A DNA stretch of 64,000 bases from Polytrichum commune (taxonomy: Eukaryota > Streptophyta > Polytrichopsida > Polytrichales > Polytrichaceae), in NCBI GenBank assembly GCA_950295325.1, contig OX485808.1:3474501-3538500 (forward strand), written 5' to 3'. The first letter of the stretch is position 1, and each line of letters opens with the position of its first letter. Position numbers and translations under genes: made by a program. Below the pieces are notes generated by a model that had not been told where the DNA came from, searched no databases, and worked only from the letters and a program-made list of their open reading frames with translations. Shown here piece after piece: positions 8,107-45,220 of the stretch.

Positions 8107-11100
8107 ATGGACAACGGCAATGTTCAACGGCGTCGCCCGCTACACGACCCAAGCAGAGTGCGCGCTAGGGATTGCAAGCTATGGACAGCAGAGGAGGCAG
8201 CCGCTACACTAGCGAATGTGACGAAGGTGCGGTGCAAGTGCCGCAATTGCAGGGGGCAGACCTGGGTTTCTAGGCGCACATCCGCTAAACACATGAGGTC
8301 TATTGGTCGAGATCCCAGACTCCGGGCCAACGTCGACATAAGTTTTCATCTCCTCCGTATTCCACAATCTCGTCACCATTGTTTATGTGGGTTGCAAGGA
8401 ATTGGATTTGTATGTTAATGTGGTTGGTCACCTTGATTGAGGGATTTTGATTTGGAGGTTCTGAAAGTAGAGGTCAGAGATTTGGTTGTTGATGACGCTC
8501 ATGGAGCCTTTGTGGGTGCATGGGTTTAGGCAGAATTCTCTGCAGTTTGCGCATAATTCTCTGCAGTTTGCGCAGAATTCACAAACAATGTAGTGGTATG
8601 ACACAGAACATTGATGCTCCATGCCTTTTTTGTCAGTATTTGTTGATTTTTATGTCAACGGGTGCTACCGTCCAAGAGAGCATGCAGTCTTGGTTTGGGG
8701 TTAAATAAAATCACTCACATAGCTTTCATAGGCAAACACCCACTTTTAGGGAGAGCCCTCCATTGCCCATTGATGTACCCCAACCAAAACCCAGGAAGAT
8801 GGCGAAAGGATTTTGAGGTCGCCATAGTTGATCGCTGGCTCAATAGTTCTGGAGTTTCTACATGTGCCCTGTTGTAGACCTTGTCATCAAAATGCAGGTC
8901 ATTGGTATGAATTGTTTGCTGACTTTGAGAACACCCTTGTTTTTATCCGCAGGGTCCTCATGCGGATTCTTCTTCCGAGGAGTGGGTTGCTGCTGAGCTC
9001 AAATATCGAGCTTGTCTACGTGAATTCCATGATTGCGAGGAAGTTGATGCACCCCTGGATGTGGGTGCAGACCTTCGGCGTGTAGTGACATAATTGTTTG
9101 CTCGAGCAGACGAGGTTCGTGTTGAGGCAAATCATGCACGGGTTGTAACTAAAGACGGTGTGCCTCCAATTGGGAATGAACCTGAGGGCAGTGTGGGGGA
9201 GTCTGATTCAGACCCTTGGGATGGGACGACAAATGACGACCAACCTCATGGCGCAAACCACCCCGTTGAGGATGAGTTGCTTGAGGAGCTCAGCGTGAAG
9301 TTGTTTCCTGATGGCAGGGTGAGTCGATTGGGTGCAACCATTTACCTTTTATGTGCTTTCAAGGTTGCAAAGGCACCAAACAACCTCATTAACGAAGTCT
9401 TCAAGCTATTGCACGAAATAATTATACCGCATGGGAACACGTTGCCTTGCTCTGAAAAAGAGGCCACTCGCATGCTTAGAAAATTAGGTCTTGTGTATGA
9501 CACAATACATTGTTGCCCACACAATTGCGTATTGTTTTGGGGGAATCTTGTAGATGCATCCGTCTGCCCAAAATGCAATGCAAATAGATTTGTCAGACAT
9601 TCTGTTCCAGCAAAAGTCTTGCGCCATTTTCCAATCATCCCGCGGGTGAAAATAATGTTTTCCATTAAGGAAATAGCTGAGTTGTTTTGCTGGCATCACT
9701 TCAACAAGTCCAAGGATGGCCTGATGAGGCACCCCGCCGACTCCCCGCAGTGGGCCAATGTCGACATGGAATTCCCAGAATTTGGATCAGAACCTCGCAA
9801 TTTACGTGTCTTCCTATCAGTTGATGGGGTGAATCCCTTCGGAATAAAAAATTGCAAATGGTCTTGCACCCCAGTGGTGATGACCATTGTGAATTTGCTG
9901 CCCTGGTGTATGACCAAATTCTTTTTTATGTCGCTTTGCCTGCTCATACCTGGAAAGGAAGCTGTGAAAGGCAGTGAATTCGATGTATTCTTTGAGCCAT
10001 TGTTGGAGGAGTTGAAAGAGTTGTGGTTTGAGGGGGTGCGGATGAGGGATGCTTCCGGATTTCTTGGGCAATATCACTTTACATGCAGGTTGGTTGTGCT
10101 TTGTACTGCCCACGACCTCCCTGGTTTAGGAATTGTGGCGGGATGCACAACCAAGGGGTACATGGGATGCCTGCATTGTGGACCTGGAACAATTTCGCGT
10201 TACTCAAAGAGTTTGAAGAAAATTGTTTATGACTCACAACATAGGCGATGGCTTCCAGAAGACCACCCTTTTAGGTTTGCAGACTCTGTATTTGATGGCG
10301 CAGTCGAGCATGAGGTCCCACCTCCGGAAGTGCAACCATCAGAGGTGTTGGAATGGGCAAGGGAAAGGAAGGCATTTTTGGATGGTGGGGCCAAGCCGAA
10401 GCGGGTTGATCCCTCGCGGCGCACGGGGATAAAGAGGGCATCTACTCTTTATTCACTACCGTATTGGGAGGTTTGGGAGTTCTAACCTTGGTCCTTCAAT
10501 GCTATGAAGTTCAGGGGCAATTGATTTAATGAAGCCCCTTGTGTATGAATTTGTTCATTACATTATAATATTTAGATGCGTGGAAGCTGGAGCAAAGTTA
10601 TAATTTCTAAGTCGATCCAGCTGAGATTCCTTGGTTGCGGGAGTTCACAGCTGAAACTCTATGCTTGTTAGAAGCATGGATGCCTCCATCTTTTTGGGAC
10701 CTAATGAGCCACCTTGTGATTCACCTTGTGGACGAGTTGGAGATTTTGGGTCCAGTGGCTTGCAGATGGATGTATCCCATGGAAAGGTACCTTGGTGTTT
10801 TGAAGAGTTATGTAGGCAATCGTGCCCGACCTGAAGGCTCAATGGCTACATGTTACTCATTAGACGAGGCTTTGGGGTTTGTAACCAATCACATAAGAGA
10901 CTTCCCTCATAGCAGTCGCCGAATCTGGGACAATGACGAAGAACCAGGTATAAGTGGGGAGGTCCTTGAGGGCGCTGCAACGCGCAAGAGTTTGACTGAC
11001 GTGGAACTACGTCAACTTCATAATTTTGTAATATCAAACTCTGAGGACACTGCGTCGTACCAAAGGTCTGATTTTTACATCCACCTAGCTAGGACTGTCT

Positions 11101-11787
11101 GTAGCTTTAAATATGCTTATGTTTGAATTCATGCATTTCATGATAGCACGACCCTCCTGGCCGATAGTATGAATGGCATCTATGGTTGCTGGGTTATTCA
11201 AGCAAGGTTGTCGGAGCAACACACGGGATAAGGAAGTTGTGGAGGTACAATTGGCATATGTGGGCACTTTAGTTGAAATTCTCCAAGCTTCTTATGGGAG
11301 CACGAATGTTATATTGTTCAAGGGACGTTGGGTGCGGCCCGATTGTGGGGACACACCAACCATGAAACAAGATGAATATGGTTTCTGGCTGGCAGATTTT
11401 TTCCGTATGCAGCCCCCCAATGTCCAGCCGTATGTGTTTCCATCACATGTACAACAAGTGTCTGTGAGTGATGACCCGTGGGAAGCAGGGTGGAAGGTGA
11501 TTATGAACGCTGAACCACGCAGTGTACGAGTTGCAGATGAGATGGAAGATATGCGGTTGGTGCAGAGCACAAACAAGTTCGGAGTCGATGCTCACCTACA
11601 CAATGATGAGCCGGAAACGAGAAACGTGGCCCAAGAGGATTTTCAAGTTTTCCCGGATGAAGAAGTCTTTGTTTTTGCGTTCAATGTAGCTACATCTGGA
11701 AGAGAAGGCAAGGGCTCATCTTCGGCACCAAATGATTCTGCAAGCGACCATTCTTGCGATGGTGGAGAGGACGGACTGCAGTGGTAG
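8107..11787 (+). CDS. CACTA TNP2-type transposase (Transposase_21 with DUF4218 and DUF4216 regions)
   Basis: Exon 1 starts at 8107 and encodes the transposase-associated zinc-binding region (VRCKCRNCRGQTWVSRRT, then AKHMRSIGRDP). A good acceptor (TTTATCCGCAG) at 8952 opens the main exon, 8953-10,485. It matches the TNP2 catalytic region: HNCVLFWGN, CPKCNANRF, VDGVNPFGI, VVMTIVNLLPWC, TTKGYMGCLHCG and LYSLPYWE. The next block, 10,635-11,126, is DUF4218-like (WMPPSFWDLMSHLVIHLVDE, GPVACRWMYPMERYLGVLKS, ARPEGSM). The last, 11,173-11,787, is DUF4216-like (VILFKGRWV, KQDEYGFWLADF, DDPWEAGWKVI). This domain order is standard for CACTA transposases, which cut and paste the element by binding its ends. 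A TAA lies in frame at 9091-9093. The stretch usually joining LPYW to DUF4218 (with a DVMH-like motif) is missing or scrambled around 10,485-10,630. AATAAA near 11,930 could be its poly(A) signal. Confidence 0.85.
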
Positions 11788-18657: not shown

Positions 18658-20937
18658 ATGGAGTGGAGGTCAGTGTACTTGGACGTACTCTTGGTGCCCA
18701 CTGGGCTTCTGATTCTACTCGCATACCAGGCGTGTCTCGTAAGGAGGGTGAAGTATAAACCTCTGGATACTGTGATCGGCGTGAACCACCTTGCCCGGCG
18801 TCAATGGGTTTATAGCATGATGAAGGTACAACAACTCCTCCATATACTTGTATACTTCTTTTGTTCATGTTATTTCGGAGCTAAGGTAGACGTGGATATT
18901 CGGAAAAGTGTCCGCACCCACTTCTCGTAGCTGGATATGAAATACGTCGCAATTAGTGCGAGATGATTACCAAATGCAAATTGTGCCCGCAGCCATTTGC
19001 CTCACACTTTTCGGAGATCATTTGAGTATCTTATTCATTATTGAAATGAACCTGATCCTCGTGCTTATTAAGTGGTGATAAAGGTCCTCCCAAATCTGGT
19101 TGACTATTGAGCTCAGAATGGTTAAGATTTTGTGAGTAAGTAGTCCAATCTCTTTTGAATGTACACGATCTGCCTTTTTGATGCCCGTACAACGTCTTGG
19201 GCTCATGTGTAGCAAGTTTGTGAAATTCGCCAAAGTTGCTGGTAAGCCGGCAACACTTGGGGAGTCTTCACGCATTTAAATTAGCTGGAAGATCCTCAGC
19301 AGATTGCCGACCTACCAGCAACTTCGGCAATCTGTAGATTCTAAGTCACGTCTATCTTGGTTGAATCATGCTTAGTGTAATTCAATTATGTTCTTAGTTG
19401 AATTTGCTTGAAGATGCTGAGAGTTTAGGGTGTACGCCTGACTTCTTCCAATGTAAAATGAGAGCTCCAGTTTCTGCGTCGTAGAAAAGGAGAAACCAGT
19501 ATTATTGTTCTCTGTGTCATCAGAATTTGCAGCTGCATTTATTGAGCCTTGAAAACGCTCAAAGAAACTCAACTGAGCATCTCTAGATCCTCACACCATG
19601 GAGTGTGATGCATGTTTGCCTCGTGTGCTCATCCCAATGAGTCCGCTTGCCATTTAATCAAACCAGCTTAATTTAATATGGCAGACTCAGAATTTGCGGC
19701 CGCAGTAGTTGAGCCTTCAATGCACTTAAGAAACTCAACTTCGGAACCTCTCGCAGATTACTCTCCCACCACCAACCCAAATCCGATCCTTCCGTTTCGG
19801 TTAGTATGTCGGCCTGAGAACTTGCGGCCGCACTTGTTGACCCTTGAATTCACTCAACAAACTCCACTTCGGAAGTTTTAGCAGATATTTATCCCAACAC
19901 CAACCCCAGTCTGAACCTTGCGTCTCGATTACCATGCCGGCCTCCGAATTTGTGGTGGCCGCGCTTGTTGAGCCTTGAATTCACTCAACTGAAGCATCTG
20001 CAGATTCGCACACCATGGAGTGATACATGTGTACCTCGTGATCCGTGCCGAGTGTGCCCATCTCAATCAGTCAGTTTGACATTTATCCCGATCAGTTTGG
20101 TAAACATGTCGAGATCAGAATTTGCGGCCGCCGTGATTGTTAAGCACCGAATTCACTCAAGAAACGAAATTTCGGAAGCTTCCGTAGATCATTATGCTTC
20201 TCCCACCACCAACCTAGCCTAACCTAATCTTCCCCTTGCTGCATGTCCTGGCATGGCAGGACAATGACAAGAAGAACATCCTGGCGGTGCAATCACTCCG
20301 CAACACCATCATGGGATCGACACTCATGGCATCAACAGCCATCCTGATGTGCGCAGCCACCGCAACCCTGATGGCCAGCGCCTACTTCCACACTGAGTCT
20401 CCTCTCTTTGGCGGCGCCAGCCAGAAGCTCCTATGCGTCAAATACATGTCAGTCATGCTCTGCTTCGGCTTCACTTTTCTCTGCTACATGCAATCGGTGC
20501 GATACATCAACCACGCCAACTTCCTCATCAACATCCCCCCCCATAGCGAAGACACCGGCTGCCCCACGTTCATTCGCATCACCCCGGACTACGTTTCCAA
20601 CGTGCTGGCCAAGGGTTGCAACTTCTTCACGGTTGGCACCCGTAGCTTCTACGTTGCATTTCCTCTCTTGCTGTGGTTCTTCAGCCCCGTTCCGGTTCTC
20701 GTTAGCTGCGTGGGGCTCGTGCCATTGCTCTTCTACTTGGACACCGCTGACATTGACGCAGAGGACGGGTTTATCTGCAAAAGCAATTTGCAGGCTAGGG
20801 TTGGTGTTGACATCGAAGCTGCTGCAGGGGGGAATGCCGGAGTGCACAATTCCGTGAAGAATTCTCCCAATCCCGATCATTGGAGTACCGTGGAGCTCAG
20901 GATTCGAGCTGCCACGCATGAGGATGTTGGGCGCTAG
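18658..20937 (+). CDS. DUF599 family multi-pass membrane protein, two coding exons
   Basis: Exon 1 (18,658-18,825) encodes 56 residues from ATG, MEWRSVYLDVLLVPTGLLIL onward, to VYSMMK. The donor AAG/GTACAA is followed by a 1,434-bp phase-0 intron and the acceptor GGCATGGCAG at 20,259. Exon 2 (20,260-20,937) gives 225 residues beginning DNDKKNILAVQSLRNTIMGS. The joined 281-residue protein shows the DUF599 pattern of land plants: YLDVxLVPxGLL near the start, GVN-ARRxWV, NDKKNILAVQ-LRNTIMGSTL at the exon junction, and VGTRSFYVAFPLLLWFF late. About four hydrophobic segments are visible: residues 9-27, the IMGSTLMASTAILMCA region, KYMSVMLCFGFTFLCYM, and FYVAFPLLLWFF through LVPLLFYL. The C-terminal tail is hydrophilic. 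The family's function is not established; membrane location is predicted. No break is seen. The intron holds repeat R1 copy 3 and a five-unit minisatellite, and the 3' end is tandemly amplified downstream. Confidence 0.9.
18940..19180 (+). repeat. Dispersed repeat R1, copy 3, inside the DUF599 intron
   Basis: It shares GTGCGAGATGATTACCAAAT, GCAGCCATTTGCCT, TTTTCGGAGATCATTTGAGT, ATCTTATTCATTAT, GTTGACTATTGAG and CCAATCTCTTTTGAA with the copies at 1045 and 31,610. It is in the same orientation as the gene. Confidence 0.6.
19515..20200 (+). repeat. Intronic tandem repeat, about five units
   Basis: Units begin at about 19,519, 19,687, 19,811, 19,944 and 20,115. The shared core is CAGAATTTGCGGCCGC, then GTTGAGCCTTGAATTCACTC, AAACTCAACTTCGGAAG and GCAGAT. 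Spacing is 124-171 bp. Three units keep an intact GCGGCCGC octamer. Units 1 and 4 also share CACACCATGGAGTG, then CCTCGTG. The array fills most of the second half of the coding intron. Confidence 0.7.
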
Positions 20938-30935: not shown

Positions 30936-31155
30936 TGGCGGGCATAACTTGGCATCGTAAAGTTTTGGAGGCATGATTATTTGCACACGTTTGAATAGAT
31001 ACTCGCATTGGAAATGACTATATTGCACTCCTATTTGAATGTGATGTTGTGGTGTGTCATATTATATCATACTAATTGTGAAGTAGGGTAAACATGAATC
31101 CCTTCCCGAGGCATCAAAAGTCACTCTTTGGAAACAATGGGCCAATCTCCCCCTA

Positions 31156-31509
31156 ACATTACCCAACCCAATACTCTTAACTCCGGCGCGGAGTTCGATG
31201 CGGCTCCGATGCGGCTCCGGGGAGGTTCGGATGCCAGCTCCGGTGGGTCCATTTTTCTGGCCCTCCCCGTTTTGGCCCCTTGATGATTTTTTTTGGGTTT
31301 TTTTGCTAAATTTGGGTCTTACGGCCCCAAATTACTCTAGGAGCCCCCTTATGAGATCAAGTAAGGCCCCACCCAATCAAAAAAATAGGGGGCAATTTTT
31401 GCCCCAACCCACCCGAACCCACCGGAGCTGGCATCCGAACCTCCCCGGAGCCGCATCGGAGCCGCATCGAACTCCACGCCGGAGTTAAGAGTATTGGGTT
31501 GGGTAATGT
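31156..31509. mobile_element. GC-rich foldback MITE with about 95-bp inverted repeats and TA target duplication
   Basis: Left arm ACATTACCCAACCCAATACT, then CTTAACTCCGGCG and GATGCGGCTCCGATGCGGCT is repeated almost perfectly inverted at 31,418-31,509. TA lies directly outside both ends (31,154-31,155 and 31,510-31,511), as for Tc1/mariner-type MITEs. The arms are strongly GC-rich in an AT-rich setting and contain an internal doublet of GATGCGGCTCC. The frames at 31,198-31,488 and 31,349-31,546 are by-products of the foldback. Confidence 0.85.
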
Positions 31510-31609
31510 TATCCCCAATCTCCCACCACTTCGTGCTTCGAGTCATGCTCGAGATCTAAAGGTTGGTGGGTGATAAATGGTTACATTCCTCAAGTAGCCC
31601 ACTACTCCT

Positions 31610-33704: not shown

Positions 33705-34251
33705 TGTCGTGTAAATAGCGATCGTGTGTCACTGCAGCTCGAGTACCAACCACCACTAACAAACAATACTAAAACATAGCAAAGTCACACATAAACAACA
33801 CACCTCGACAGATAAGGAAGAGAGTAAAACACTCATAAGAGTTCTAATTTTTCTCCAAATGCACACAACTAGTCAAGCTATCTCTCACTCCACCAAGGGA
33901 GAATCCAAGAGTGTAAGTAGGGGAAGAAGAACTCAAGATTTATTGCAAAATCATGCAATCTACACCTCAAACAAGCTCTCTCCACACACTAACTCACAAG
34001 ACTTGACTTGGCAAGAATGCCAAGCCAAGAAGGAGGCTCCTCACTTAGGAGCCTTCTTCTCCACATCTAGATTCATCCATCCAAATCTAGATGGATGAAA
34101 CCCAACGGATAAGGTGCGGCCATCGACGCCGCATACCGTGACAGTTGTCGTGTAAATAGCGATCATGTGTCACTGCAGCTCGAGTACCAATCACCACTAA
34201 CAAACAATACTAAAACATAGCAAAGTCACACATAAACAACACACCTCGACA
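33705..34251 (-). repeat. 3' LTR complex: 333-bp LTR-like core between two 107-bp direct repeats
   Basis: A 107-bp unit, TTGTCGTGTAAATAGCGATC to ACACACCTCGACA, occurs at 33,704-33,810 and 34,145-34,251 with about two differences. Between them lies the 333-bp core (33,811-34,143) shared with 44,888-45,220. Minus-strand sequence at 34,251 begins TGTCGAGG directly after the polypurine tract, as an LTR start should. The far end also has TG/CA borders. The matching right-hand terminus lacks both 107-bp units. Confidence 0.7.
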
Positions 34252-34588
34252 TGCCCCCCTCAGCTGACTATGGAGTCCCGCCAAGCAGCTAGGACCAATG
34301 CCAATCTAAAGGGCATGGATAATAAAAGAATTGTTCCGCAACTAACTAGTGTGGTAACATTATTCCAAGGAACTGTAGGCTGGGTGCAAGGTGAGCCCCA
34401 TCCTTAATCGCCTCTGATGTTTGGCCATCAGATCCCAAAGAATTAAATCCACCGCCTCATGTTGATTGCGTCTCTAAGCCATAACTCCTCATTTTCCATT
34501 TGGGCAGACACAAGATGATGAAAACCACACAGGATCATTGAGTATGATTGGTGGAAGCACCAAGTACCGAAGATCCTCGACTGCGAGG

Positions 34589-34714
34589 ACAACTCCACTG
34601 TCCAGATGGTAGAGAAGTCAAGGGTGGCCTCAAGCATGCCATGTGCCAACCGTGTTGACACTGATCACACAATAGCATAGTAGCCGCTTCTTTCTTCTCT
34701 CCACACACAAAACA
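34589..34714 (-). other. Gypsy part: PHD-finger-like module after the integrase
   Basis: Minus-strand translation shows CFVCGEKKEA, then MLLCDQCQHGWHMACLRPPL, LPSGQWSCP: the C-x2-C ... C-x2-C-x4-H-x2-C ... W-x-C layout of a PHD finger. PHD fingers usually read histone H3 tails. Other Gypsy lineages (chromoviruses) carry a chromodomain at the same place, after the integrase, to steer integration, so a targeting role is a reasonable inference. Confidence 0.8.
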
Positions 34715-34779
34715 TGGAAGACCCTCTGACACGACGGCTATTTCAGGATGAACTGTACCCTCAATAGGTAGATGACATG

Positions 34780-35900
34780 GGGCACAGTTTTTGGAATGCT
34801 CGCGACATTCCCTGCCATCCTTGCCTTCCAATAACAACAAACCACTCGGCAACACCTCTTTCACCCGAAGGATAGTGCGCCCCGCCCTGACATTCAATGT
34901 CGTAGGCGCCTCACGTTGGAGATAGACATAATCTCCCTGCTGGAATCTCCGCAACTGAGGTCGGTAAGCACCACTGCGAATGCGTGCATAACGCAATGTA
35001 TCACGGTGTTGAGCAATGGACAAATTCTTCATGGCCATAGGCATGGCCCTCTAGAAGAATTGAACCCGCTCCTGTAAACACTCTGCCCAAAGATCTGGGT
35101 CATCCAAGTTTACAATAAGAGCTAGTTTTTCCCGAATAGAATTCGGGAGTATAGGCTCACGTCCATACAACAACTGATACGGGCTGTAGGACGCCAAAGA
35201 GGCCTGCCTACTAAATCGATAGCCCATAGCAATCCAAGGCAACATAAGGTCCCAATCCCGGTGGCTTCCCCGAAGTAATCCATACCACGCTTGGTTGTTT
35301 GAACAACCCGTTCAGCCAAGCCATCTGCCTCCGGATGATTTCGTGAGGTGGTGCGGTGATCTATGAGCGCCTTAGTGCACAACTCCTCAAAAGCACCAAG
35401 GAACTCCCTCCCTTAGTCCGTCAACACCTCAGCTGGTGCTCCAAAACGTGCTAATACACGATCCAAAAAGGCGGCCGCGGCCAATTCTGCAGAGTTATGG
35501 GGTAGAGCAACAAGCTCAATCCACTTGCTAAAATGCTCCACCATCACCAAAACGTACTTTGCTCCACGTGGTGTAACCACCAACGGCCCTGCAAAGTCCA
35601 GCGACCAACGGTAGCCTAATCCCATGATAGGTAAGGGCTGTAACTGAGGTGATAAGGTGTTAAAGCTAGACCTGACCCGGTCACAAACTTCACATCTCCC
35701 GACATATGCAGCCACATGTTGATACATGCCAGTTCACCAATATTGGCCACGCAACATCAAATGTGTCCTGCGTATGCCAAAATGACCAAGTTCTTCGTGC
35801 ACTTGTCGCACCAAGGAGGCCCTCTGATCCGGCCTAGGAACAATACGCCTTGTCCCATCCGGCCACAATCGAAATAACAAACCGTTTTCCCAACGGAACC
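34780..35900 (-). other. Gypsy part: integrase
   Basis: Zinc-binding N-terminal region around 35,690-35,800 (GHFGIRRTHLMLRGQYW, then GRCEVCDRVR). The catalytic core follows with WSLDFAGPLVVTPRGAKYVL and VMVEHFSKWIEL. Further along come SYSPYQLLYGREPILP and a C-terminal RFQQGDYVYLQ segment, the usual end of Ty3/Gypsy integrases. Confidence 0.85.
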
Positions 35901-36447
35901 TTGTTATTCGATGTCCAATCCTATCCCTTTCCATTGCCGAAATAGACAAAGGAAAGGTACCCTGTTGAAGCTTATGCAATACGAGAAGATCCTCCCATAT
36001 ATCCGCAATAGCTTGAGGCCGATCAGTCTCATCATCCGAGCCCTGTATCGGAATCTCAACAGATGCACTAGAAAATAAAGTGAGGTAGGCAGCCGCGTGC
36101 CAACCTGGAACCGCCTCTCGATCACAATCTCCATGCCACCTGGCCCCGGTTAAGTCCTCATCTGAAGGACTTGGATTGCGTGAGAGTCCATCTGCATCCA
36201 TGTTGGTGATCCCAACACGGTGTATCACCTCAAAGTCATACTCCTGGAGCAATAAAGCCCACTTGGCAAGCTTGCCAATAAGCTTATCCGACTCCATGAG
36301 CCACCGTAACGGCTGATGGTCAGTCACTAAAGTAAAGTGCTGACCATAAATATACCATAAATAGCCCATACCGCCGCCAATGCTTCTCCCTCGTAGGATG
36401 AATAATTAGCCTCCGCCGTGTTATTGCTTCGCGAAGCGTAAGCAACA

Positions 36448-37558
36448 CACTACAAGGAAATGGGTGTATAATTGACAAAAATGTGACACTAAAATGTCCG
36501 AAGTGACAAAATCAGCTCAAAGCTATGAATTTTTGTCAATTCGGACATTATTCAAAATTTGTGTCAATTTTCTGTCATCAGATTTATATATTTCACGTTT
36601 AACTTATTCCCTTCACCTGAGCATGTGTCTCATATTTATTAACAACAAAAGGTGTTACAAAAGGGGTTACAAAAGGTTTTTAAGTATTGTAATTACTAGT
36701 ATAAGTAATTAATATAAATAATGTATTTACTATAATTAATGTAATAACTAATTTAATTAATTAATGTAAATACTGAAATTTGCTAATTTAAGTAAATATT
36801 GAAATTTGCTAATTTAGGTAAATACTGAAATTTGCTAATTTAGGTAAATACTGAAATTTGCTATTTTCAGTAAAATACTGAAATTATTGTAATTAATGTA
36901 GTTAAAATAATTACAATAATTACTGTAATAATGTTTAGGAGTATTTTTGTAAATTTTTTTTAATACAAATACAATACGTACTAATTAAAAACAGTAAATA
37001 CATTAATTCTATGTTTGTTTTTACTTTCACTAATTAAAAAATATATATACATAAGTTTATAAGTCTTATGGCTTCTTCATACAAAACTCTTACATACTTG
37101 GCCTATATCATGTAATGAGCGGTGGCTTAGTGGCTAAGGCCTTCACACTATAGCCAAGAGGTTCAAGGTTCGATCCCCTTGACCCCTCACCCTTGGCTTC
37201 GCCTAGGGTAGGTAGGTGGCTTTGTCCATTCGCCTAGGTTAGGTGAGGTGGCCTTTTGCCCTTAGACCTATGTGAGTAGGCCACGAATGCGAGGGTGGAT
37301 TACTAATTTAGGATTTTTTTACTAGTATAACTTGGACATTAAACCACATCACCATGGGTAAATGACGAGGTAAAGAGAATCCAACATGGCAAGGGGGCCG
37401 GAGTAAATGGAATCCTATGTGTATAATTATCCCAGATGACAAAAAAATTGACAGAACTCTGTTAATTGTATGACCGAATCAAGGTGCCCTATATGACACC
37501 CAAATTAACAGAATTTCGTCACATTTTTGTCAAATAGGTCATATAAACTCTTGTAGTG
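36448..37558. mobile_element. 1.1-kb non-autonomous CACTA element inserted in the Gypsy element
   Basis: It begins CACTACAAGGAAATGGGTGT and ends ACTCTTGTAGTG, with ACA duplicated directly outside both ends (36,445-36,447 and 37,559-37,561). The ends share a further subterminal TTGACAAAAATGTGAC in inverted orientation. There is no transposase. The interior is very AT-rich, with a fourfold AATACTGAAATTTGCTAATT-type repeat (36,770-36,885), and carries a SINE at 37,117-37,320. It could have been mobilised by an element like the 3397-12,515 copy, with which it shares only the terminal 10 bp. Confidence 0.9.
37117..37320 (+). mobile_element. tRNA-derived SINE inside the CACTA element
   Basis: The pol III box A is GTGGCTTAGTGGCTAAGG (about 37,122-37,139). 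Box B is GGTTCGATCCCC (about 37,168-37,179). The T-rich 3' end is GGATTTTTTT at about 37,310-37,319. Length near 200 bp and the tail fit plant tRNA-derived SINEs. The downstream body (GCCTAGGGTAGGTAGGTGGC) resembles that of the SINE at 45,600-45,830. Confidence 0.8.
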
Positions 37559-39059
37559 ACAACATACTCCCGGCCAAAATCATCTTTTTGAGTGAGAACT
37601 GCTCCCAAACCCAATGAACTCCAATCTGTATGCAACTGGAAAGATTTGGAGACATCTGGACATCGAAGCACTAGAGTCGTACATAGTTTCTGCTTCAATG
37701 TCTCAAATGCCTGTTGTTGCTCACGACCCCAAGTCCATGGTTGGTCCTTGCTCGCGAGAATGGTGAGAGGCTTGGCGATCAAGCTAAAGTCCTTGACGAA
37801 TCGCTGATAGTAATTCGCCAAACCCAAGAAAGCACGAAGTCTCGGCACATCAACCGGTGCCGGAATCTTCTGCAAGGCGTCCACCTTAGCTTGTTGTACC
37901 CCAAGACCTCTTGGAACAATCATATGTCCCAGATATGCCAGCCGGTCATGAAAAAACTTGCATTTGCCGTGGTGCAAGCTCAATCCCCACCGCTGCAACC
38001 GTTCAAAAACGGCTTGCAGATGCCTCACATGCTCCTGTGGTGTTGTGTTGAAGATGATCACATCGTCTATGTAACACCGAGCAAAGGGCAAGCCAAAGAG
38101 AACCTGATCCATCACCCGCTGAAACTCAGCGGGTGCATTCTTCAGGCCAAATGGAAAAAACTTCCAATGATAAAGTTGATCTTTCCCATCTTGATCAACT
38201 CCCCAAAATGCGGTCTTCACTCGATCTCCCGTAAGTAATGGAAGTTGGTGATATCCGGATCTCAAGTCCAAGGTGCTAAAGACCCGAGAAAATCCGATGG
38301 CATCGAACAACTCCTCCGGGATTGGCATGGGATACCGATCCGACTTGGTCTTCCGATTAACTGGACGGTAATCCCCACACATCCGTTTCTCCGTCCAATT
38401 GCCAAAGATATCCTTCTTCGATGGCATAACCGTAGCACAAGCATACTCCCCGTTGGAAAGTTCGATTAGCCCTGCTGCCAAGAGCTCTCGGCAACGAGCC
38501 TGAACGCCAATCCGCTCGGAAACACTGAGCCTGTAAGGTCTCCGAAAAATGGGATGGTCATCCTCCAACTGAGTGTGGATGGGTTTTCCTTTATAACCTT
38601 CAAGATCATGAAGGCTAAAAGCAAAACATCTACGGTATGAGCGAATAAATGCTCGTACCTTCCGTGCCTCAGCACCAGTGAGACGAGAGCCTAATTCAAG
38701 TGGCCAATCATCAAACTCTGTAGTCTCCCTCTCCACCAAAAGAGAACCACATGATGCTAGCACAGACTCTAATTGCTAATGAGAGGAGGGGGCATTAACC
38801 ATGCCCCCGGTCTCGGTGCTAGTACTAGAGTCTGACATTTCTTCATCACCACCAATATGTGATGATGAAGCCACCACCGGAGGCGAAGAAACCGAAGCAG
38901 TGTAAAAATGTTGAGCTCGAAGCTCCTCCATCACATGCTGCTCGAATTGAAAAATTCGTTCGACTTCTCAAACCATGGCGTGAATTCCCTCCTCCATGGG
39001 TGTGGACCGCTGTGCCCCCTGACCAGAGTCCTCTGCCCCCAAAGACAACCACTGGTCAC

Positions 39060-40040
39060 CATGATGCCTTTGCAATGAAAGGCATAAAGCAACAGTCCAC
39101 ACCATAGTATGAAGATCCATAGCTTGGCCCAACACGAAGCGTCGTTGGCCCTCAGACAGGCCAGGAGCTGCGGTGGTGCCAGTACGGAATCCCATGGCAC
39201 GCTCCCGTTCGTCAGCCAATGGTTCAGTGTGGGTTTTGGTGTGAGCATCCTACACCATACCCGGCCCTCGATCGCGGAAGGCGAATGACTGTGGAAACGT
39301 CATAAAGGTGGGAAATGCCCTCCGTGGTACCCCCACTTTGTTGACCAATGCCAACGGGGGTAAATCATCTCGAACAACCGGCAAAGACGTCCGGTTTGGA
39401 TCCAAGATGGTATCCACCTTCTGATCCAAAGGTGGAGGCACTACAGAAAATGCTGCAGCTAAAGTAGATGACGGTGCGAGGTTGGTCCAAATCCACCGAG
39501 GCCGGTGGGCATAAGAACCAATGCTCGCGGCATCCACAAAAATGGGATCTCCAAGGTGTTGACGAACATAATAATCGCCTTCCAACACCTTGTCCCGAGA
39601 GTCTCCCAACAAAGGTACATTCTCAAAAATATACCCTGGAAGAAAAGGTTGGTGGGAATACCACCACTGCATGAGGCGGATGAGGTCCCAAAATAGAGTA
39701 GACCTGGGATCCTCTAGTCCTCCGCCTGCTCCAGCACGTGAATGGCCCTGGCATGGCCATCCCGCAATCACCATATCCACCGGACCTAAGTGTCATAAGT
39801 CGGCCTCACTGATGAGTGTGACATCACGAGGGAGACGTGAAAAACACCCACGAATGGCAGTTGGAGGTAACTGCTGGGGATACAATACCATCAATTGGTG
39901 AAGATGGTGACGAGCCACACGGGTGGACACTTGAGAGTTGTCCACATAGACATACCGTCTAACCGTGAGGCCAGCCTCCAATACGGCCGCTAAGCCTGTG
40001 CCGATGCCCCCAAACAGTTCCACCAAAGTAATCCCTGCGT
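39060..40040 (-). other. Gypsy part: DNMT3-like cytosine-5 DNA methyltransferase domain
   Basis: Located between protease and reverse transcriptase. Motifs appear in the normal, unpermuted order: motif I ELFGGIGTGLAAVLEAG (SAM binding, about 40,000-40,020), then YVYVDNSQVSTRVARHHL; motif IV MVIAGWPCQGHSRAG with the catalytic PCQ (about 39,750); motif VI YIFENVPLLGD; motif VIII-like SYAHRPRWIWTNLA; then FPTFMT, ERERAMGFRTGTT, and motif X RRFVLGQAMDLHTM (about 39,090). The spacing and the AHRPRW, FPTFM and MGF blocks resemble DNMT3, not DNMT1/CMT, and the unpermuted order differs from plant DRM. If once active it could methylate DNA; that is inference. Confidence 0.88.
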
Positions 40041-40059
40041 CTGGCGGCTGCCATAAAAT

Positions 40060-42010
40060 GGGATGTGCCAATGCCGAGAGGACACCCGGTATGACCGGTG
40101 TCTTAGGAGTGAGAGAGTGAACAATATCCTCGCACCTCCGAAATAGCTCGGTGGAATCACGCCAAGGAGGAAGGGGATCCTTGGGATGGCGCACCAATGC
40201 ACCTTTAGGTGCCATATCCCGTTGATCGTCTGTACTTCCCATGAATGCCAATGACTCCTCCAACAGTGCGGAACCATAAGGCAATGTGTCCACCATAGCA
40301 CCACATCCAAAAACCATAGATAATGGTGCTATGGTCGCGGCCGCCGCGAAAGCCACGGGAATAAGTTCCCTACAACCATCCCGAGCCGACCAACCTGGTC
40401 GAATCCACGCCTCCTCAATCCAATTGTCCAAACCAAAACCAAGAGGGTAAAGTGCTTGCTGACCAACTAAAATGTCATAGTTGGTCGCATCCGTCACCGC
40501 ACACCTAAGAAGGAGAGGTGCGGGTGAATCTCCAGGCTCCACTCGGAAGCTAAGCTGTAATGGCTCTCGAGTATAACCCATGGCCCGCTCCACGTGACCA
40601 ATGGATGTGACAATGGTGAATGGACAGGGAGCCAAATCCTCGACCGTCAACCTCAACTCTTGGACAAGCCTCTTGCCGATCATAACTGGCTGTGCCCCTG
40701 AATCCATCATCACACAACGGGGAGCAACCCGAGTAGCATTGCTCCCAGTGCGACTGACCACCAAAATTCCGGTATCATTCACCATACGCACAACGCCGGG
40801 TCGAATACCGCGGCGCTCGCGGACAGGTCTAGCAGCGACATCAGACAGATAGGCTGCACCCGTGGATACTGGTGAGTCATAAGACGTGGTCGGTGTCTTG
40901 TCATCTAAGGCGTGTGCGTTAAAAGACGCAATGGTCTCTGCCGCAAGTCTCGCTTGCTGTGTGGCCACATCCTCAGGATCTTCAGAAGCAGGGATGTGTG
41001 TAGTGGCTTGAGCCACGGTCAGAGAAGGTAAGGATGCCTTCCCTTCCAAAATCCTACCTGCTAAGTGAAAAACCTTAGCAGGTTGGAACTCTGGCGATGA
41101 CCAGTCCATGGCCATGAACAAAGGTGTGTGCAACACCTTGGATGCCAACGTGTGCGCCACATCAGTCGCTGAATGTGAAACCTCATCATTCGGATGACGA
41201 CCATTGACAGATTGGACGGCATCGGCCAATCCAAAAGATAATGGTAGTCGTGCCTGACCAATTTGGTCCGTGGGCGCATTGTCCCGAGCTCGCGAGGTTG
41301 CCACATATTCATTTGTAGTCGAAAGTATGGATTGTGACACGGCTTGAGCACGTGTCACGGCCGCGGAACTCACCACCTCGCCCGAGGCTCCGAACATATA
41401 GTAATCCGGAGTGGAAGAACTAGCCTGAGCTCTGGAGGAAGACGGTGAGGCCAAGATTTGGCCGGATGACGCCAAGCTTTTGAACCTCTCCTCCATGGCT
41501 TCAATCTTCGCCTCCAACGTCTTCTCCCGGTCGGAAGAAGGACGTTTCTCAGGATGGAGAGCAAAGCAGTTCTCTACCGCGTGATTGTTCCGCCCACAAT
41601 GGGAACACTTCAACTGTTTGGGTAACTGATTACCCGTCGTCCCCTTCGCCGAGCCCTTAGCGGGAACAAATGGTTTCCACTTCGGAGTAGTGACGGTCTG
41701 GGCTTGCCTTTGCTTCGAAGGACAGTCCTTCTTAGCGTGGCCGGCCTGCCCACAAGACCAACAATACATGGTCTTGTCTACCTCGGCCTCCGCCAATCCC
41801 GCAGCCGCAACCGGAACTCTTCGGGATTTGCTAGAATCCACTAGCAAGGACACCAAATCAGTGGCATCGTGCTGACATAATGCACGATCACACTGCTCGA
41901 CCACGGCGAATGCCTCTGCGAGTGTCACTCGACCACCAAACTCCATGATGATCCTGGGTAGCGCCAAGTCAAGGAAACGTTTGTCAATCGTTGACAAAAA
42001 CACCTTCACC
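40060..42010 (-). other. Gypsy part: zinc knuckles and aspartic protease
   Basis: Two CCHC knuckles are visible: CWSCGQAGHAKKDC (about 41,730-41,775) and CSHCGRNNHAVENC (about 41,560-41,610). The protease active-site motif CVMMDSGAQPVMIGKRL lies near 40,700, with a downstream ILVGQQALYPLGFGL segment. A long low-complexity linker (SPSSSRAQASSSTP) separates the knuckles from the protease. Confidence 0.85.
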
Positions 42011-42850
42011 AACTAACTTTCCGCGAACACACCTCCAGATTCTCTGGCAAACCTCGCCAACCTCGTATACATGGTACGAGGTGTATCGTCCTTCTCCCGT
42101 CTGAAATCTTGTATCCGCTGCATCTGGTCACGACGGAAGCCTCCGTACTCCCCCTGTAGATGCAGCTCAAATGCCCGCAATGGCTCAAAATCTCGCAGAG
42201 CCCCTGAAGAGGCTAAAGCCGCTTGGGTGGCCATGGCATAACGTGAGAGTGGAAGAACTGGGATCGACGTACTCGCCGCAGTGGGAGCAGGACCCGTAGC
42301 CCTCGGCTCACCAAGAGGAGCTCCCTCCACATCCACCACATAACCTCCCTCCGGTACCTCCGTCTTGACATCCGAAACGGCCATGAAACTGGAAGCTGCG
42401 CGCGGATACCAACTCAACCCGAGTCTCCCAGTACCGCTCCACCTGGCACAGCTCCATCCAATGAGCCTCCGTCCACTGCTCATAAGTTTGGAGAGCTTCA
42501 TGCTCGAAATGCTGAGGCAGAAGCTCAAACGCATACCAATCGTTAAAATTGGTATTGCGTTGGCGTTTCTCTCGCATCCACGTACGAAACTGGATTTTCC
42601 AGTCTTGCAGAGAAATGGTCCCTACTCGACCGGAAAACCAGTCCCGTATCCCTCCCCTAGTCTCCTCCTCCATATCGTCAAAGGTTCCCACCCACAGAAC
42701 GTGAGACCGAGTGATAGTCCCCCACGCCGAAGTAGGCTGAAAAGCCTCGTTGGGTGCTACCACTGGTTCAACGTCCGAGAGGTCCGAGGAATGACCTTCC
42801 GATGCTCCTGGGGACGGAGAACGATAGTGCTGAGTACGAGTTGTAACCAT
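42010..42850 (-). other. Gypsy part: gag
   Basis: The minus-strand frame opens MVTTRTQHYRSPSPGASEGH near 42,850. It continues with a gag-like helical region (WKIQFRTWMREKRQRN, FNDWYAFELLPQHFEHEALQ, WMELCQVERYWE) and then LRAFELHLQGEYGGFRRDQM and MYTRLARFARESGG, the retrotransposon gag pattern. Confidence 0.75.
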
Positions 42851-44640
42851 AAACCCACAATGGGATGGTCACCGAATCAACAACCCAAATGAATTAGTAT
42901 CCAGGTACAAAGAGAAAAAGGGTCAAAGGCAACCTGCACCTGCAACCACCACCAAAACTTATGGTCTGCTGGTCATTAACCCAGCCTCATCACAAGTGAA
43001 AACAAGCACCGCCCACTTGGTGCACAAACAAAGGTCCCGTCGGTCATTAATCCGACCTCACCTCCACAGTACCCTATCACAATCTAGGATTACACAAAAT
43101 GGGGCAATGCTAGAACACTCCAGCACTACAGCCCGCCACAGGGGAAGGTACCAAAACAAAATACAAGGAACAATGCAAGAACAGCACTGGATCCTCTTCC
43201 CCAAAACAACATTCAAGCAGAAATTGAAAACGACCGCAACCAACTGGCACCCGCCTGCAATTGGTGGTCAAAATAATGAGCCCATGTTGCTTAAGAAAAG
43301 AAATTGCATAAGCACATTGCTCATTTTCCCACCACTACCCAAGAATCTCTCCTCACAACAATGCCGGGAATATGTTGATAAACACAATTCGACCTTAATA
43401 ATAATTTATTTTAGGCCGAACGTAAATTACACATGCCACCCAAATCCCAATAACATTTCTCTCAGAAATTTTGTACAACACAACCCCTAAAAGAAATCCC
43501 AAGTATGTTTAATACTTCATAAGAGCTTAAGTTTTTTTTTTCTAGTATCCTTGATTAATGAGCCCAAGAAATTAACCTCTTAGAGAGAAGAGAAAGGATT
43601 AGAAGTTGTAGGAATCTAAAGTAATTAATTAATTAATTAATTAAAATAAAAATAATCCGGTTTTTAATTAATTAATTAATTAAAACACAAAATAAAACAA
43701 AAATAAAATGTAACCGGTTGGACTTGCAAACACCTGGGTCCCAACCAATTATGCCCCAAAAAACTTCATTGACCAACCATGGTCTCAACTGGGTACGCCC
43801 AGCAATCTCAGTTTCTATGCTGGACTAAATAAGATCTGCCCTGGCTCAGTATACCCAACAATCTCCCCGAAACCTATATGGTAGGCTAAATACAGGCCCG
43901 AACCGGTTATGCCCAACGATCCCCTTAATACTTGTCTGTCAGACAAAGGAGATCTCAACCAGGTATGCCCAAAAATCTCCCCGATCTCTGTACTGGGACT
44001 AGGCCTCCAATATGCCTAGCCTGTACCGGTTTAAATAGGCCCAGCATGGTTTAATTAGGGCCTAAAGGCCCCAGCTAATTATGCCCAACAATCTAATTAA
44101 TTAAAACAAACACAAAATAAAAATAAAAATAAAAACAAAACAAAAATAAAATGTAACCGGTTGGACTTGCAAACACCTAGGTCCCAACCAATTAAGCCCA
44201 AAAATATCCGACCAGGACCTCAACCTGGTCGAAAATGCCCGAAAATCTTCGTTCACCTGGCTGCCAGAGAGGCAGCCAGGGCCTCACCCTGCTACGCCCA
44301 CCAGAGTCTGCTTCCTGGCTGCCAGGGAGGCAGCCACGGTCTCACCCAATTATGCCCAAAAATCTTCTTCGTGTTCCGCAGAGGCCAATAAGTCTGGCTA
44401 GGTCAGCTGGATGTGACCTCCGGCTATCTTGCCGAGGTCCCGAGTTCGAATCTGGGCTCGGGCGACTGCGGGCCAAGCGGCGGGCCACCGCAAGGCACTG
44501 ACAGAAACCGGACAGCGGCGGCCAGGAGCCAGAAACCAGAAGCTACATGTTTTTCTAAATTTTTTTATTTTGAATTTTTGAATTTCTGTTTTCTTGAATG
44601 AATGAATCGCTTTCGAACACAAACAAGAATTGTTTCTAAT
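42851..44640 (-). other. Gypsy part: long repeat-rich leader
   Basis: Non-coding stretch between gag and the 5' LTR-related repeat. From about 43,735 to 44,370 a motif like CAACCAATTATGCCCAACAATCT recurs roughly ten times at about 45-65 bp intervals in strongly diverged form. In addition ATGTAACCGGTTGGACTTGC plus AAACACCT occurs twice (43,709 and 44,151). (TAAT)n-type runs lie at 43,622-43,685. A tRNA-like segment sits at 44,385-44,560. Confidence 0.6.
44385..44560 (+). mobile_element. Possible tRNA-derived SINE or captured tRNA-like sequence in the Gypsy leader
   Basis: A box A-like TGGCTAGGTCAGCTGG (about 44,395) and a box B-like GAGTTCGAATCTGG (about 44,451) are about 55 bp apart on the plus strand, followed by a T-rich tail at 44,550-44,580. 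A full cloverleaf does not form by eye, so a functional tRNA gene is unlikely. Confidence 0.5.
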
Positions 44641-44887
44641 AGCTTAACGCCATGAATTCAAGCTTGCAAGCACTCAATTAACATAAAATTTTGTGGAGAA
44701 TTCAACACCACAATTCACCTTCAAGTGACCTTCACAAGCGAGCATTCTTCATGTTGCTTCACAAATCCGCGGTGTTCTCGCTCCGGAACTTCACAACATC
44801 GTCACTCCTTGTTTTCACGCCCTCTCTTGCGCGTTACATCTCAAGAATGAAGAAGAAAACATCAAAGATGAAGCATTCTTGCCAAGT

Positions 44888-45220
44888 GAGAAGGAAGAGA
44901 GTAAAACACTCATAAGAGCTCTAATTTCTTTCCAAATGCACACAACTAGTCAAGCTATCTCTCACTCCACCAAGGGAGAATCCAAGAGTGTAAGAAGGGG
45001 AAGAAGAACTCAAGATTTATTGCAAAATCATGCAATCTACACCTCAAACAAGCTCTCTCCACACACTAACTCACAAGACTTGACTTGGCAAGAATGCCAA
45101 GCCAAGGAGGAGGCTCCTCACTTAGGAGCCTTCTTCTCCACATCTAGATTCATCCATCCAAATCTAGATGGATGAAACCCAACGGATAAGGTGCGGCCGT
45201 CGACGCCGCATACCGTGACA
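44888..45220 (-). repeat. 5' LTR-related repeat of the Gypsy element
   Basis: These 333 bp are about 98% identical to 33,811-34,143. The minus-strand start TGTCACGGTATGCGGCGTCG abuts unrelated flank at 45,221. The LTR may extend leftward to about 44,650, where CATGGCGTT on the minus strand could mark an LTR end and primer-site start, but nothing in the left LTR matches that extension. Confidence 0.7.

Follow-up and report, generated by a model that had tools for sequence, protein, structure and literature searches.

Retroelements carrying DNA methyltransferases

The closest described system is KnitGypsy-Dnmt3 of Klebsormidium nitens, a Gypsy element that carries a DNMT3 domain (de Mendoza et al. 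2018, PMC5890265). According to the published account, its methyltransferase (MTase) showed no activity in yeast, a result that the authors regarded as inconclusive. Two retroelements with DNA methyltransferases, SymbioDIRS-Dnmt3 and SymbioLINE-Dnmt, are described from Symbiodinium in the same paper, and DNMT3 in streptophyte and dinoflagellate retroelements is also noted in PMC12344493. For plants, PMC6317226 describes self-primed reverse transcription in Tcn1 and TAR, and target duplications that measure 4 or 5 bp. The main text of PMC5890265 mentions neither self-priming, PHD nor circular DNA, and its sole 'stop codon' refers to premature stops in LINEs; 'methyltransferase' and 'PHD' are both absent from the main text of PMC6317226.

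Since capture of an MTase by a retroelement has been reported from Klebsormidium (PMC5890265), as an earlier note on the present DNA stated for a charophyte alga, the capture itself is not new. Integration of such elements from circles was not found in the literature searched, which lay mostly outside subscription journals. Circle integration is generally considered a dead end for retroelements with a DDE integrase. We consider it likely that a streptophyte Ty3/Gypsy family has captured and kept a DNMT3-type MTase, and that this family uses readthrough, self-priming and circle integration. Judged from sequence, its apparently new features are an MTase that closes ORF1, a UAG junction, probable self-priming, a PHD finger, a second lineage, and split repeats combined with 4-bp duplications.

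A broken Ty3/Gypsy element with a methyltransferase domain

The window, a 64-kb stretch of Polytrichum commune DNA, contains an MTase-bearing Ty3/Gypsy element on the minus strand at 33705-45220. By direct reading and Pfam matches, its domains run in the order gag, CCHC, protease, MTase, RT, RNase H, H2C2, rve and PHD, in which RT, RNase H and DDE integrase follow one another as in other Ty3/Gypsy elements. Its parts are as follows, L001 being a related sequence discussed below.

33705..45220, minus: whole element; termini TGTCACGG (A1) and CACGACA (B2)
44888..45220, minus: terminal repeat A1; 97.6% identical to A2 over 336 bp, 8 differences
45083..45097, minus: 15-nt stretch of A1 that can pair with the primer site; RNA 5′ end proposed here
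44873..44887, minus: primer site of the self-priming type, abutting A1 (A1 end from the A1/A2 alignment)
38776..42850, minus: ORF1 (gag, CCHC, protease, MTase); usual stop at 38776-38778, TAG CAA TTA
41716..41766, minus: CCHC zinc knuckle; PF00098 E=0.0018, 18.8 bits, under the Pfam cut-off of 20.8
40393..40755, minus: aspartic protease (DSGAQ), by direct reading
39064..40038, minus: DNMT3-type C5 MTase domain; Pfam, profile comparison and fold of the relative L001
37519..38775, minus: RT and start of RNase H (ORF2); PF00078 1.2e-28, PF17919 1.2e-15
36447..37554, unstranded: later insertion of approximately 1.1 kb splitting RNase H, seen as a gap against L001 ORF2
35734..36405, minus: end of RNase H and integrase H2C2 zinc finger; PF17917 7.4e-10, PF17921 6.3e-6
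35051..35733, minus: DDE integrase (rve), interrupted in the window copy by stops and a frame change; PF00665 4.9e-9
34583..34714, minus: PHD finger behind the integrase core; PF00628 1.5e-11
34252..34262, minus: polypurine tract abutting B1
34145..34251, minus: repeat B1
33811..34143, minus: repeat A2
33705..33810, minus: repeat B2; 98% identical to B1

The window copy is broken, a point on which the earlier note was silent. Two in-frame stops lie inside the MTase (39793-39795 and 39250-39252), further in-frame stops occur at 42013, 38968, 35734 and 35413, and the frame changes in gag, near 36360 and near 35284. Unlike these stops, the one at 38776-38778 is the usual ORF1 stop of the element family. 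The protease piece of the window copy gave no Pfam match, whereas the protease of a relative (P0067) matches PF13650 above cut-off. The PHD finger has PHF12, CHD4 and KMT2D as its nearest PDB entries. The sequences flanking the element, GAAA and AAAA, agree at three of four positions.

Within the approximately 1.1-kb RNase H insert (36447-37554), a stretch near 37117-37180 was noticed that we take to resemble a tRNA-like promoter, possibly that of a SINE; ARAGORN found zero tRNAs in the window. Elsewhere in the window, ORFs at 9094-11126 (plus strand) match Transposase_21 (1.5e-58) and DUF4218 (3.9e-29) and presumably belong to a CACTA-type transposon, a DUF599 gene piece at 20218-20937 (plus strand, 8.7e-52) is likely a host gene, and an inverted repeat of 95 nt, 99% complementary and with arms 168 nt apart, occupies 31154-31511.

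Identity of the methyltransferase

Read on the minus strand from 40038 to 39064, the domain presents motifs I (FGGIGTG), IV (GWPCQG), VI (FENV), a VIII-like motif (AHRPRW) and a C-terminal RRFVLGQAM, downstream of the DSGAQ protease and upstream of RT. The earlier note had read the same motif order between protease and RT on one strand, and had proposed a PF00145 search, in which the middle open piece of the MTase scores E=2e-10 and 41.1 bits (cut-off 22). Both the family score and the order of motif I, the motif IV Cys, the motif VI Glu and motif VIII are those of a C5 DNA methyltransferase. The catalytic Cys and Glu columns are invariant in the alignment (n = 28).

By sequence profile and by fold the domain is closest to DNMT3, its motifs are unpermuted, and the model of the L001 MTase has a DNMT3-like fold over residues 12-343. 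The interpretation offered earlier is upheld in part; in the MTase tree, the reference set held one DNMT3A fragment. We also considered a DRM identity and rejected it, as the order I-IV-VI-VIII-X is not the rearranged motif order of DRM. DRM chains have their best match to the motif I-IV half of the MTase at the C-terminal end of the chain (228-349 of 357, 4onj), and a second stretch passes too.

Copies in the genome and constraint on the methyltransferase

In the genome of the window (407.8 Mb), PF00145 gave 353 candidates, and each of the 123 that were scored exceeded the Pfam cut-off. There are at least 123 MTase matches, 18 of them with open frames of at least 1356 aa, and a few could be ordinary host methyltransferase genes; DNA was inspected for part of the 123, as 8 short loci and 20 stretches with one place common to both. 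Because the same genome holds 123 PF00145 matches, the presence of an MTase in the window element is not a matter of chance. The 20 copies used below are the 18 with the longest open frames plus two others, a non-random sample; 5′ sides were taken from all of these and 3′ sides from 16. ORF1 comparison and the tree divide the genomic copies into two subfamilies, with the window copy in the second.

Between the window copy and L001, dN/dS is 0.100 for the MTase, 0.104 for the protease and 0.046 for RT (NG86, with dS saturated). For the MTase it is 0.116 between the element's own subfamilies (55 of 63 pairs computable), 0.223 within subfamily 2, that of the window (20 of 21 pairs), and 0.577 within subfamily 1, whose copies are the youngest and are, on these ratios, under weak constraint. 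The AGWxCQ motif is kept in 15 of 16 open ORF1 copies, L045 being the one without it. The observed/expected CpG ratio in 16 copies is 0.64-0.81 in ORF1 versus 0.36-0.86 in the flanks; as the ORF1 ratio is not below that of the flanks, no footprint of self-methylation was seen in these copies.

The ORF1 stop and expression of Pol

ORF1 closes with the MTase (Gag-CCHC-PR-MTase). In 18 of the 20 copies its stop follows the MTase tail in a UAG-CAR-YYA context, with RT in frame behind it, and the junction reads TAG CAA TCA, TAG CAA CCA or TAG CAA TTA; in the other two (L046 and L049) ORF1 ends elsewhere. The L001 junction is TAG CAA TCA. UAG-CAR-YYA is a leaky readthrough context of the TMV type, and it is found here at a junction with Pol in frame. 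Many related ORF1 proteins terminate within about 165 aa past the MTase. The leaky stop is not universal, because in P0142-P0144 the MTase and RT share one frame that runs on. If Pol is produced by readthrough of the stop, the MTase would be packaged in Gag-like amounts.

Split terminal repeats and target duplications

The terminal repeats of the window copy are A1, then B1, A2 and B2. Identical long terminal repeats at both ends, usual for Ty3/Gypsy elements, were found in none of the 16 copies with both ends read: 12 have the arrangement A-internal-B-A-B, and four (L030, L031, L041 and L045) are A-internal-B, with A and B once each and without any long terminal repeat. No B was detected by blastn at the 5′ side of the 12 A-internal-B-A-B copies, within which A1 and A2 are 94.6-100% identical. 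Every one of the 16 is flanked by an exact target duplication of 4 bp, and none by one of 5 bp; because the duplications lie on both sides, the outer A1 and B ends are the ends of integration. Among 20 further 3′ ends, 12 are B-A-B, three are B followed by other DNA, two show B|A but no further B within the stretch, and three have neither.

Both A|B and B|A junctions are present in 12 of the 16 copies. The A|B junction is that of joined primer-site and polypurine ends, and 21 of the 24 that were read are exact; the others are shortened by 2 nt (L080), by 21 nt at CTTG (L037/L057) and by 27 nt at TGT (L078), two of them with microhomology (4 nt and 3 nt). In L037 A1 is complete and A2 is the shortened one; the losses in L078 and L080 were gauged against other copies rather than their own A1. 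The B|A site is palindromic, CACGACA-GC-TGTCACG, with CA-GC-TG, and has one base altered in the window.

Repeat A carries an internal tandem duplication of ~129 bp in L033 and L053, in A1 and A2 alike, and in L043 a further A-plus-leader stretch (586 bp, 88.6%) precedes A1 by about 1.3 kb.

A primer site complementary to repeat A

In the window, the 15 nt that follow A1 are fully complementary to a stretch within A, and a pairing as long occurred in 0 of 500 shuffles; in L001, where the end of A was set by hand, the pairing covers 13 nt (0 of 500 shuffles). With the end of A set by pattern, 12 of 12 copies show pairing of 12-15 nt that begins at the first primer-site base. Three primer pairs, those of subfamily 1, subfamily 2 and L001, differ in sequence and keep their complementarity, and L044 and L047 have primer-site changes without a matching change in A. 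The A1/A2 alignment ends exactly at the primer site in the window and in five subfamily-2 copies, extends up to 6 nt beyond the primer-site start in subfamily 1, and stops short in L037. A position directly after A is independently established only where this alignment ends there, because the end of A is otherwise preset.

As in Tf1-type elements, the primer site lies beside the LTR and is complementary to LTR sequence. The RNA probably primes its own reverse transcription, with changes that compensate each other between the subfamilies, and the complementary stretch would be its 5′ end.

Relatives and a second lineage

Three protein searches, each with 8000 candidates scored, gave 61, 91 and 67 matches. 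These include relatives from Marchantia polymorpha, Calypogeia fissa, Sphagnum fallax, Sphagnum troendelagicum and Closterium, and no Klebsormidium-named record is among them. The domain order of the window recurs in Marchantia, Sphagnum and Closterium records, and the occurrence of such records in liverworts, in Sphagnum and in Closterium suggests that the family is long-lived.

Domain maps of 174 proteins, obtained with the MTase profile and window pieces as queries, fall into a class I with the order PR-MTase or MTase-RT and a class II with RT-RNase H-MTase-H2C2-rve-PHD or parts of it. Judged from these maps, class II is a second lineage whose MTase sits between RNase H and integrase. A tree of 85 rows separates each class (42 rows for class I, 21 for class II) from all other rows by a branch supported at 100/97; this tree has a midpoint root, several long branches and 22 rows in no group.

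An MTase between RNase H and integrase was observed in P0149-P0156, P0159-P0170 and P0172, and P0166 has a G-patch match below the Pfam cut-off. L001 is a 9285-bp contig filed as a cyanobacterial (Synechococcales) MAG, and DNA of the same retroelement family (P0005) lies inside an Obscuribacterales MAG; both are probably plant contamination. IMG/VR contigs L003-L021 have weak partial MTase matches of 29-61% identity.

A proposed integration route and its alternatives

Because the primer site directly follows A and the polypurine tract directly precedes B, the cDNA should be B.A-internal-B.A. Self-primed reverse transcription would yield this linear cDNA, with B.A as its LTR, and its ends would then be joined to form a circle. 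The integrase may recognise the palindromic B|A site, cut after CA on both strands and insert the opened circle; the 2-nt 5′ overhangs expected from such a cut would resemble those of ends processed by integrase. Two-LTR circles would give A-internal-B-A-B, and one-LTR circles, or cuts at both B|A sites, would give A-internal-B. In all 16 copies the target duplications are at the ends expected from an opened B|A site. Since the MTase is on the Gag-side ORF, packaging and cDNA methylation are predicted: the MTase would probably methylate CG sites of the cDNA inside the particle. Such methylation could label the exposed circular DNA as self, or silence the new copy in advance. Whether a DDE-integrase family regularly integrates from circular cDNA and also packages its own MTase in Gag amounts to methylate the circle is, in our estimate, evenly balanced.

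Recombination or gene conversion between ordinary LTRs might instead have produced the split repeats once the element was inserted, and conversion could account for the 94.6-100% identity of A1 and A2 in 12 copies. We regard this as highly unlikely, as all 16 exact 4-bp duplications lie outside A1 and B2 (12 copies) or outside A1 and the single B (four copies), B1 begins directly at the polypurine tract, and the split arrangement is common to two subfamilies. Head-to-tail linear concatemers or PAT-like reverse transcription, followed by the same integrase step, would also produce A-B-A-B; identical A|B and B|A junctions are expected from such a route, and DIRS elements are described with A-coding-B-A-B (PMC5890265). 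In L037 and L078, however, the A|B junctions are shortened at microhomologies and resemble end joining of finished cDNA, and a tyrosine recombinase is absent from the scanned window ORFs, so that we judge this origin rather unlikely and favour the circle.

As for the MTase, a neutral passenger inserted once into a single element copy would fit the broken window copy and the weakly constrained youngest copies (dN/dS 0.577), yet it is the least probable of the alternatives, very nearly dismissed by the evidence. The genome has at least 123 PF00145 matches, every one over the cut-off, and ORF1 with the MTase is followed by RT in 18 of 20 copies, which contradicts the chance one-off insertion that the earlier note had named as its refutation. 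The domain order is also common to the Marchantia, Sphagnum and Closterium records, the catalytic columns are invariant (n = 28), and dN/dS between subfamilies is about 0.1. We give most weight among the alternatives, while still thinking it somewhat unlikely, to a target other than element cDNA, namely RNA or host chromatin, where the enzyme might for example disturb silencing. The element is without a CpG footprint, and its PHD finger suggests contact with chromatin; against this, residues 12-343 of the model adopt a DNMT3-like fold, the position in ORF1 beside Gag/PR favours packaging, and SymbioDIRS DNMT3 domains are reported to methylate CG of DNA in yeast (PMC5890265). With methylation of the cDNA as the preferred reading, the reason why a retroelement retains a DNA methyltransferase becomes testable in this family, for which Marchantia is a laboratory host.

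Comparison with known systems

Compared by published description, KnitGypsy-Dnmt3 resembles the present family in having a DNMT3 with unrearranged motifs in a Gypsy element, DIRS-like repeats (Fig. 4c legend) and purifying selection on the MTase, but according to PMC5890265 it carries the MTase in its Pol polyprotein ORF; in the present family, 18 of 20 copies have the MTase at the end of ORF1, before the conserved UAG. Circle integration, if true, would explain the DIRS-like repeats given for the Klebsormidium element in that figure legend. The SymbioDIRS elements, as described, share the coexistence of two domain orders, like classes I and II (PMC5890265); they and SymbioLINE differ in being DIRS elements with a tyrosine recombinase, or LINEs, while the window family has a DDE integrase and target duplications.

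The Tf1/Sushi elements and plant Tcn1 are alike in placing a primer site beside the LTR and complementary to LTR sequence (PMC6317226, PMC2864245); chromoviruses have a chromodomain where the window family has a PHD finger, and the MTase and split repeats belong to the window family only. DIRS/PAT elements share the split direct repeats, A-ORF-B-A-B. No PF00589 tyrosine recombinase was found in the scanned window ORFs, where rve is present, and the family thus differs from DIRS/PAT in combining such repeats with a DDE integrase and, in all 16 copies, an exact target duplication of 4 bp.
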